Assembly (NCBI GenBank): GCA_029240105.1
Contig: JARBTR010000003.1
Coordinates: forward strand, 56,411-120,410
Source of the DNA: Caryophanales bacterium
GTDB lineage: Bacteria > Bacillota > Bacilli > JARBTR01
Direction: 5' to 3'
DNA length: 64,000 bases
How positions within the stretch are numbered: position 1 is the first letter of the stretch; every line of letters begins with the position of its first letter. Below the pieces are notes generated by a model. It worked only from the letters and a program-made list of their open reading frames with translations. It was not told the DNA's origin and searched no databases. Shown here piece by piece: positions 25,781 through 43,005 of this stretch. The position numbers were made by a program, and so were the translations under genes.

Positions 25781-25855
25781 ATAGATTCAAATTTTTCAGT
25801 ATTATATGTATAGAACTCTTGCAAACTGTTCAGAATGTTTGCAGAGGTGATAGGA

Positions 25856-26611
25856 ATGAGAGAGGAAAATCCTTCTCAATTAGTAAAGAGAAACTCAATT
25901 TTGAGAAAAAAATGGTTTTTACCAAGTATGTACTTAGCGTGTGTTGCTTTGGTAATGGTTGGCGCTTTTTGGTACCAAAGTGAACAAGATGGTCCAGATA
26001 AAACGAAAAATGCAAAAAATGCTGAAGTAAGCAATCATGAACCATCTGTAGAAGTGAATCAGTCTTTTGAAAACTTTGCATTACCATTAACTGATTCTGA
26101 AAATGTCGTAATCAAAAAGCAATTCTACGATATTAACGGAACTGAAGACCAACAAGAGGCTGCTTTGGTCCAGTATGGTGATACATACCAACCGAATACG
26201 GGTGTTGATTATGGTTTAAAGGATAATGCAACCTTTAATGTTCTTGCATCAATGTCTGGTACAGTTACAAGGGTTCAAACCGATCCGCTTTTAGGGAATG
26301 TAGTTGAAATTGAACATGACAAAGGACTTGTTACGCTTTACTCTTCATTATCAGATATCTCTGTTAAAGTAGGAGATAAAGTGAAACAAGGCGCAACCAT
26401 TGCAAAGGCTGGTAAAAGTGAAATTAATGCTGATGCAAACGTACATCTACATTTTGAGATGAGAAAAGATGGTGTCGCTGTAAACCCGATAAGTTTTATT
26501 AAAAAACCTTTAAGCGCTTTAAAGGGCACGGATACGACAAACGCTACTCAATCAAGTGAAGAACAAGGAAAAGAAAAATCTAGTCAAGAAGATTTAGAGC
26601 CAGAAGAATAA
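25856..26611 (+). CDS. spoIIQ: SpoIIQ-like M23-family sporulation protein
   Basis: N-terminal TM, degenerate LytM domain, position after spoIID; ATG 25856 with RBS. Confidence 0.88.
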   Translation: MREENPSQLVKRNSILRKKWFLPSMYLACVALVMVGAFWYQSEQDGPDKTKNAKNAEVSNHEPSVEVNQSFENFALPLTDSENVVIKKQFYDINGTEDQQEAALVQYGDTYQPNTGVDYGLKDNATFNVLASMSGTVTRVQTDPLLGNVVEIEHDKGLVTLYSSLSDISVKVGDKVKQGATIAKAGKSEINADANVHLHFEMRKDGVAVNPISFIKKPLSALKGTDTTNATQSSEEQGKEKSSQEDLEPEE

Positions 26612-26621
26612 AATAAAATTT

Positions 26622-26701
26622 AAAAAGCTCTCTTTTACTATACATTCAAAATGTTAGGCAAAATCTAACATCTTGAGGTGCATAGTATCTGGGGGCTTTT
26701 T
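26622..26701 (+). terminator. Three-tier nested stem-loop at spoIIQ 3' end (terminator with embedded palindromic element)
   Basis: Outer AAAAAGCTCTC(26622-26632)/GGGGGCTTTTT(26691-26701); middle ACTATAC/GCATAGT; inner ATGTTAG/CTAACAT. Confidence 0.7.
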
Positions 26702-35327: not shown

Positions 35328-36638
35328 TCAATTGTTTTGTGTATCTGAACCATTAGAAGATCCGTTTTCAGGGTCTAAAGGATTAGGTATGGTTCCGTCT
35401 GTTCCACCAGTACCAGTACCAGTACCAGTACCAGTACCAGTACCAGTACCAGTACCAGTACCAGTACCAGTACCAGTACCAGTACCAGTACCAGTACCAG
35501 TACCACCAGTGCCAGTGCCAGTACCAGTACCCGTTCCAGTACCAGTACCAGTGCCAGTACCAGTACCAGTACCAGTGCCAGTACCAGTACCAGTTCCATT
35601 GCCACCTGTTCCACCAGTACTACCAGATGTACCAGTGTTTTGTGTCGACTTGCCTTTTAACAAATCTGCATCAAGATTCTTATAAGCACCTTCATCCTTA
35701 ATTGGTAAACCAAGATGTTCTCGAAGAAGGGTAATTAGACGTATCCGTTCTTCATGTAAGATTACTTGGTAAGAACCACCATTTATAGTTTCGCTTGCAG
35801 CGTTTACTTGCATAGACTCTATATTATTAATCGCAGCAGAATAGGTTTTTCTTAATTTCCACATTTCTTCTAAAGTTAAATTTGTTTTTACGTTTTTTCC
35901 TACAGCCTTGAAGATAGATTGAAATTTCGTGAAGGAAGAAAAATTAGCAGTATCTTGAACTATTTGTTTTATAACAGTTCGTTGTCGTTCCTGTCGACCG
36001 TAATCTCCCCTTGGATCTGAGTAACGTATTCTTACATAAACTAATGCAAAATCACCTGTTAAGTGTTGTTTTCCTTTAGGGAAAACAATTTTATCAACCC
36101 AAATTTTGTATGGATTATCAACAGTTATACCACCTAAGGCGTCTACCATATCTGTAAAACCTTCAAAATTGATTTGTGCAAAGTAATCAATTGGAATATC
36201 CAATAAGTTCTCAACTGTTTTTATCGTTAAGTCCGCTCCACCAATGCTAAAAGCAGAATTGATTTTGGTATAGCCTTTACGGCCAGGTATTTCAACCCGT
36301 GTGTCCCGTGGTATGCTCAACATTTTGACTGTGTTTAACTTTGGGTTAATCGTGACGACAATCATTGTGTCGGATCGGCCTTTGTCACCTTTCCCTGAAG
36401 CTTCAACACCCATTAAAAGTATTGAAATCGGTTCAAGTTTTTCTAGATTTACTGCCTTTTCACGTTTGCTAGATTTCTTTTTATCGACATGAACTTTGTT
36501 CATCATATTTGAAAAGCTAAAATAGAAAAATAATGCGTAAGTCAGTATGCTCAGGAGAAGAACAGAAACGGTTGAAATGATTATGATTTTTTTTCTTCTT
36601 GTACCTTTTTCCTTTACTTTTGCAGTTCTTGAACCCAT
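35328..36638 (-). CDS. LytR-CpsA-Psr (LCP) family cell-wall polymer transferase with C-terminal Gly-Thr repeat tail
   Basis: GRSDTMIVVTINPKLNTVKMLSIPRDTRVEIPG; DYGRQERQRTVI; tail (GT)n. Confidence 0.92.
   Translation of the reverse strand: MGSRTAKVKEKGTRRKKIIIISTVSVLLLSILTYALFFYFSFSNMMNKVHVDKKKSSKREKAVNLEKLEPISILLMGVEASGKGDKGRSDTMIVVTINPKLNTVKMLSIPRDTRVEIPGRKGYTKINSAFSIGGADLTIKTVENLLDIPIDYFAQINFEGFTDMVDALGGITVDNPYKIWVDKIVFPKGKQHLTGDFALVYVRIRYSDPRGDYGRQERQRTVIKQIVQDTANFSSFTKFQSIFKAVGKNVKTNLTLEEMWKLRKTYSAAINNIESMQVNAASETINGGSYQVILHEERIRLITLLREHLGLPIKDEGAYKNLDADLLKGKSTQNTGTSGSTGGTGGNGTGTGTGTGTGTGTGTGTGTGTGTGTGTGTGGTGTGTGTGTGTGTGTGTGTGTGTGTGTGTGTGGTDGTIPNPLDPENGSSNGSDTQNN
35404..35600. repeat. 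Imperfect hexanucleotide microsatellite (CCAGTA)n
   Basis: Tandem ccagta units with few interruptions (ccagtg, cccgtt); encodes GTGTGT on minus strand. Confidence 0.95.
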
Positions 36639-42922: not shown

Positions 42923-43005
42923 AAAAGGAGTAGTTAATGTAAACTGCACCGAATTTGTTAGACAAAAAATCTAACTTAGGTGTGTGTCACAAATGCTACT
43001 CTTTT
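42923..43005. repeat. Palindromic element nested in outer stem (related to 26622-26701)
   Basis: Outer GAGTAG/CTACTC flanked by AAAA/TTTT; middle TGCACC/GGTGTG; inner GTTAGA-caaaaaa-TCTAAC. Confidence 0.65.

Follow-up and report, generated by a model that had tools for sequence, protein, structure and literature searches.

Full-length and miniature forms of an IS3-family element common in Bacilli insert preferentially in terminator loops

We find that an element family common in Bacilli inserts preferentially in the loops of intrinsic terminators, both as a full-length insertion sequence (IS) of the IS3 family and as a miniature palindromic form (MITE). In the window, the whole stretch of 64,000 nucleotides analyzed here from a Caryophanales bacterium, the terminator of a spoIIQ-like gene encloses such a palindrome (Table 1), and we interpret this inner segment as an old and now degenerating copy of the non-autonomous palindromic element. 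Taken together, the results make it very probable that a decayed, IS3-derived palindromic MITE occupies the spoIIQ terminator loop and that the transposase of its family targets such loops. A preliminary description of this DNA had proposed either a MITE-like element or an IS remnant, with terminator loops as its target; this proposal is supported by full IS3 elements, by insertion in loops, by 3-4 bp target duplications, and by sites that are free of the IS or carry plain terminators.

Table 1. Nested terminators and their palindromic elements in the window
Feature	Position	Strand	Basis
SpoIIQ-like CDS, M23-type peptidase; host of the element-bearing terminator	25835..26611	+	ORF; 46-50% identity to Neobacillus/Bacillus orthologues
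Outer (host) terminator stem, 5' arm AAAAAGCTCTC	26622..26632	+	Direct reading and predicted fold
Decayed MITE, palindromic, ~52 bp, TACTATACATTC...GAGGTGCATAGTA	26636..26687	.	Direct reading, fold, covariance model, flank pairing
Core hairpin GTTAG-GCAAAAT-CTAAC (GTTAG 26653-26657, CTAAC 26665-26669)	26653..26669	.	Direct reading
Outer terminator stem, 3' arm GGGGGCTTTTT (GGGGGC + U-tract TTTTT)	26691..26701	+	Direct reading and predicted fold
Second copy, outer stem 5' arm AAAAGGAGTAG	42923..42933	+	Direct reading and fold
Second MITE copy, 54 bp, TGTAAACTGCACCGAATTTGTTAGAC...GGTGTGTGTCACA	42938..42991	.	Direct reading, fold, covariance model, flank pairing
Second copy, outer stem 3' arm CTACTCTTTT	42996..43005	+	Direct reading and fold

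The outer arms of the spoIIQ terminator form 11 consecutive pairs, nine Watson-Crick and two G-U (13 in the predicted fold), and end in a U-run, as the preliminary description had stated; its claim that a palindrome of about 50-55 bp splits the terminator loop likewise agrees with the inner palindrome found here. The spacer in its search pattern was given as eight nucleotides, and the actual core spacer is seven. The 80 bases 3' of spoIIQ fold with a minimum free energy of -34.0 kcal/mol, versus -11.9 ± 2.8 kcal/mol for dinucleotide shuffles (z = -8.0). We note that this copy is diverged, with mismatches building up in the inner arms, and that a search for a target duplication at the element boundaries found none left, the ends having been set from the palindrome. 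With no duplication of its own left and no transposase found in the assembly, the insertion of the spoIIQ copy itself is judged from its sister copies. One of these lies in the window, where the recurrence of the same nested arrangement, already pointed out in the preliminary description, is confirmed by reading and by a fold of -26.2 kcal/mol (z = -5.1).

The bare core is not diagnostic of the element. Allowing two mismatches, GTTAG-N7-CTAAC occurs 20 times in the 64-kb window against 24 expected, which is not above chance; core patterns alone (this one and TTAGA-N-TCTAA) were dropped as evidence because of their chance-level frequency, and the signal therefore lies in the whole palindrome together with its nesting. 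With GCACC/GGTG arm patterns added, the core retrieved two more strong nested copies in the genome, and a first covariance model, built from four copies in both reading directions with the outer stems left out, identified 12 credible copies genome-wide. All 12 are intergenic, mostly just downstream of a gene and often 15-60 bp past its stop codon. As in a MITE, the copies are ~50 bp long and without coding capacity, and several occupy unrelated sites. Folding them with their flanks reveals a common inner sequence inside unrelated outer stems, mostly with terminal T-runs, and the outer stems are therefore the terminators of different genes.

This nesting was quantified by pairing the two 25-nt flanks of each copy and permuting the partners 100,000 times. 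Own flanks pair at a mean of -14.4 kcal/mol, versus -5.8 to -5.9 kcal/mol for cross-paired flanks (0/100,000 permutations with refined ends; p = 1e-5, the smallest possible value, in an earlier run). At a nesting threshold of -9 kcal/mol or better, 10 of the 12 copies lie in a terminator-like hairpin and two miss the threshold, so that the further genomic copies by which the preliminary proposal could be checked do exist. Two copies retain exact 3-bp target duplications at TG...CA boundaries (L040, AAT; L051, GAA).

A second covariance model was searched against 400 genomes drawn from the host's class, presumably Bacilli to judge by gene content and SpoIIQ relatives, and at E ≤ 1e-3 the palindrome is present in 109 of them, about a quarter. 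The class-wide loci take two forms, the palindrome being either the left end of a full IS3-family IS or a standalone element of 50-56 bp with both ends complete (TG...CA). The left ends of the ISs and the MITEs are both recognized by one family of covariance models, which reveals related terminal repeats, as between a MITE and its partner. In genome G322 the standalone palindrome stands alongside full IS copies (L094), and in G032 there are several standalone copies (L062, L136, L147) with a loop common to all three; this coexistence, together with the multiple copies per genome, suggests recent mobility.

Neither an IS3-type transposase nor an rve domain was found in the source assembly, which is 84.9% complete and comprises 15 contigs. 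Multi-copy ISs are often missing from draft assemblies. In G244, G008, G156 and G189 many of the palindromes are located 0-270 bases from the end of a contig, which fits a multi-copy IS that breaks short-read assemblies, and such breakage could likewise hide an IS in the source assembly. One locus (L097) at first resembled a fusion of an IS left end with a different gene, but the frame behind that end is closed and the locus was treated as a truncated copy. Remnants of these IS3-family elements also occur on phages: Caldibacillus phage CBP1 (L166, positions 570-646 of the record) contains this group's left-end hairpin with just a short ORF behind it.

The full-length element is 1341-1494 bp long with TG...CA ends, within the 1.2-1.6 kb and with the termini of the IS3 family, and nearly all full copies are bordered by exact 3-4 bp target duplications, also as in IS3 elements. 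Its orfA encodes HTH_28/HTH_Tnp_1 domains and its orfB rve, rve_2 and HTH_21 (PF13518, PF01527, PF00665, PF13333, PF13276), with OrfB matching NCBIfam NF033516 transpos_IS3 at 367.8 bits against a cut-off of 160. The ends read TGAACTGCACCCC... at the left (IRL) and TGAAGTGACCCC... or TGTACTGACCCC... at the right (IRR), and presumably resemble those of E. coli IS150. The left end is the palindrome TGAACTGCACCCCATTTGTTAGACACATCTAACATTTGGAGGTGCAGTTTTTCTATGG, whose predicted hairpin has -26 to -34 kcal/mol; its second arm holds the ribosome-binding sequence GGAGG and leads through a T-tract to the beginning of orfA. Among the carriers named in PLSDB are Brevibacillus brevis pBbsI (83% identical, with half a terminator on either side of the element), Cytobacillus kochii, Paenibacillus larvae, Lysinibacillus fusiformis and Priestia megaterium. 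Beyond Bacilli, the closest annotated transposase relatives found on plasmids include the ISPsy9 and ISKpn1 types, at ~56% protein identity.

For full ISs with two locatable ends, the sequences on either side usually make up a terminator cut in two, e.g., AAAACGCGCTCTC-TTT [IS] TTT-TGGGGAGCGCGTTTT at L090. Across 32 non-redundant full copies (L133 was excluded, its boundary being wrong or unclear), own flanks pair at a mean of -15.3 kcal/mol versus -7.3 kcal/mol when crossed (0/100,000 permutations). In fact, 26 of the 32 pair at -9 kcal/mol or better, against a base rate of 15-27%, and 19 of the 32 reach -15 kcal/mol, a value attained by 2.7% of random sites in the same loci. The 21 standalone elements from other genomes behave similarly (-12.1 versus -6.4 kcal/mol crossed; 0/100,000 permutations), with nine of the 21 missing -9 kcal/mol; L048, with a wrong or unclear boundary, was retained in this test as non-nested. 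Measured on the joined flanks after removal of one duplication, the middle of the target lies no more than 3 nt from the middle of the hairpin loop in 21 of 31 full IS copies and no more than 5 nt away in 24.

These positions could also arise by selection, if the transposase inserted anywhere and only copies in terminator loops survived. Insertion in a loop should not harm the gene, and IS3 elements have been reported as over-represented between convergent gene ends (PMC9208149). However, plain intergenic DNA beside a terminator should be equally harmless, the target duplication is tightly centred in the loop in most copies, and near-identical, probably recent copies within G394, G322 and G155 are nearly all in terminators. 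We therefore regard selection without targeting as quite unlikely and favor targeting of the loop by the transposase.

Sites without the element point the same way. In G027 (L157), a sister species 97% identical upstream, the unbroken terminator AACACTAAGGTTACAATCTTAGTGTT is the empty site of the IS at L134 in G189, where the IS lies in the loop of that terminator with the duplication TAC. At L065 in G384 a standalone MITE sits in the terminator of a ROK-kinase gene, and a plain hairpin follows this gene in the majority of the congeners that retain it. No clean empty site was found for the MITE at L136 in G032, the neighbor species G327 having another MITE nearby and the others being too diverged. 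For spoIIQ itself, a DNA search of 40 class-level relatives found no region orthologous to the 3' region, while in Bacillus sp. USDA818B3_A, Neobacillus fumarioli and N. cucumis the SpoIIQ orthologue is followed by a plain terminator with a short loop and no inner segment, which is the outcome that the preliminary description had named as a check on its proposal.

This bears on the reading of the nested structure as a structured regulatory RNA or domesticated extended terminator, its inner palindrome kept by selection for termination or 3'-end protection. The exclusively intergenic, mostly gene-downstream positions would fit such a role, as would two copies (L041, L044) that are perfect palindromes despite their differing sequences. 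Yet the palindrome has the sequence of IS3-family element ends. There are target duplications, one IS site is empty in a sister species, plain terminators occur at orthologous positions, including those after spoIIQ, and mismatches build up in the inner arms of the window's spoIIQ copy. An Rfam search likewise returned no family matching the palindrome, giving spurious matches only, mostly microRNA models that hit a Gly-Thr repeat in a different gene. Consequently, a conserved regulatory RNA is very unlikely, and a mobile element remains the preferred reading. The gene behind the false microRNA matches is a 436-aa ORF on the reverse strand of the window (35328-36638), LytR/CpsA/Psr-like by reading, whose C-terminal ~80 residues are nearly pure Gly-Thr dipeptides.

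The origin of the miniature form is most legible in foreign genomes, the copies of the source genome being too decayed to settle a hairpin versus a fusion origin copy by copy. Where MITE and full IS occur in one genome, the MITE fits the left-end hairpin of the IS better than a fusion of left and right ends: in G322 it agrees with the hairpin at 48 of 51 positions and with the fusion at 38 of 51, and in G189 at 51 of 56 and 48 of 56. The MITE of G145 agrees with the hairpin at 48 of 55. In G189, 49 bases are identical to the hairpin including its loop, and the inner arm is then completed as a full inverted left repeat. These matches show for three genomes that the MITE sequence derives from the left hairpin, and the MITE probably arose from the left-end hairpin of the IS. 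Template switching within the hairpin may have made a second left-type end and thereby a mobile unit of 51-56 bp.

An alternative is that each copy is an independent leftover of a full IS that lost its middle by internal deletion. Full ISs do occupy terminators, and two copies of the source genome (L035, L051) have one arm that resembles the right IS end (TGAAGTG / CACTTCA). In contrast, deletions would hardly yield the narrow length of the foreign standalone copies (47-56 bp in 19 of 21, the remaining two being shorter with poorly defined ends), the several copies with a common loop in G032, or arms that, in G322, fit the left hairpin clearly better than left plus right. Independent deletion remnants are thus unlikely. 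A REP-like element spread by a Y1 (RAYT-type) transposase would also be a short extragenic palindrome of comparable size; this is extremely improbable, since no Y1_Tnp domain (PF01797) was found in the source genome and the ends and target duplications are of IS3 type. We therefore retain an IS3-derived MITE that probably descends from the left hairpin.

In the resulting model, the MITE is a nearly perfect palindrome of 50-56 bp in which two IS3-family terminal repeats (consensus TGAACTGCACCCCAANTTGTTAGAC) face one another across a loop of 3-10 nt, and the matching autonomous element is the IS3-family IS with an orfA HTH, an orfB rve and the same palindrome as its left end. The IS3 transposase inserts the element in the loop of an intrinsic terminator, duplicating 3-4 bp and splitting the host stem into an outer stem around the element. 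With a MITE, outer stem and inner palindrome would stack as one long hairpin ahead of the original U-tract, and termination is probably preserved because a stable hairpin still precedes that tract. With a full IS, the stem halves would be separated while the left end supplies a hairpin and T-run, which probably serve as a substitute terminator; the same hairpin probably sequesters the ribosome-binding site of orfA. Since the outer stem still closes around a MITE, and a full IS brings its own hairpin and T-run, insertion in a terminator loop probably does little harm to the host and is nearly neutral. MITE birth would consist in completing the inner arm of the left hairpin to an inverted left repeat that the transposase can use as a second end. 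It is possible, though we hold this only tentatively, that the transposase reads the shape of its target (an extruded or transcription-induced hairpin loop) instead of its sequence, that the inserted left-end hairpin replaces the broken terminator, and that MITEs form by template switching.

Hairpin-directed insertion has precedents. Within the IS3 family, IS1397 and ISKpn1 insert in REP palindromes, a target specificity ascribed to the transposase (PMC1525189). IS1397, ISKpn1, ISPsy8 and ISPsy9 share with the present elements an IS3-family transposase and a palindromic target, the ISPsy9 and ISKpn1 types being those related to the Bacilli transposase above, but the IS1397/ISKpn1 group uses one repeated REP sequence, whereas the Bacilli elements use intrinsic terminators of unrelated sequence and have a palindromic MITE. 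An ISKpn1-type IS3 element of Klebsiella (L167:188-245) begins, like the IS described here, with an IRL hairpin that leads into an ATG, and has a REP-like sequence at its right flank; the left-end hairpin architecture thus extends beyond Bacilli. IS1272/TnSha1 (IS1182 family) of staphylococci also targets hairpins, largely terminators, without primary-sequence preference, and reportedly inserts bluntly, removing a portion of the stem and leaving no target duplication (PMC4923244). Its transposase belongs to another family, and here, contrary to the IS1182 pattern, the stem is left whole and the insertion duplicates 3-4 bp.

Small palindromic interspersed repeats are known from Streptococcus pneumoniae as SPRITE, BOX and RUP, SPRITE being terminator-like (PMC3049150). 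SPRITE differs in that it is itself terminator-like, has AAAA/TTTT ends and no established duplication, and has been described neither in the loop of another terminator nor in connection with an IS3 element. ISSau2 of Staphylococcus aureus (IS150 group) is likewise an IS3-family element of Bacilli, with OrfA/OrfB and defined inverted repeats, but the accessible part of its description reports no terminator targeting, left-end hairpin or MITE (PMC5771124). A search confined to the open-access literature found no IS3 branch that targets terminator loops and no palindromic MITE of one; we therefore claim no priority. Terminator targeting as such is already known from the unrelated IS1272.

Terminators are short, diverse in sequence and located after most operons, and for a transposon able to find their loops safe sites are nearly unlimited. 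This IS3 branch and its MITE account for nested terminators of unusual size on which annotation and RNA-family tools are silent, offer a natural tool for loop-directed insertion, and make two questions testable, namely by what means a DDE transposase selects the loop of a hairpin and how an IS end gives rise to a MITE. If shape recognition and terminator replacement hold true, they would amount to a widespread "terminator-for-terminator" strategy in Bacilli, and if the template-switched hairpin has become independent, it would be a transposon of ~51 bp, among the smallest known.
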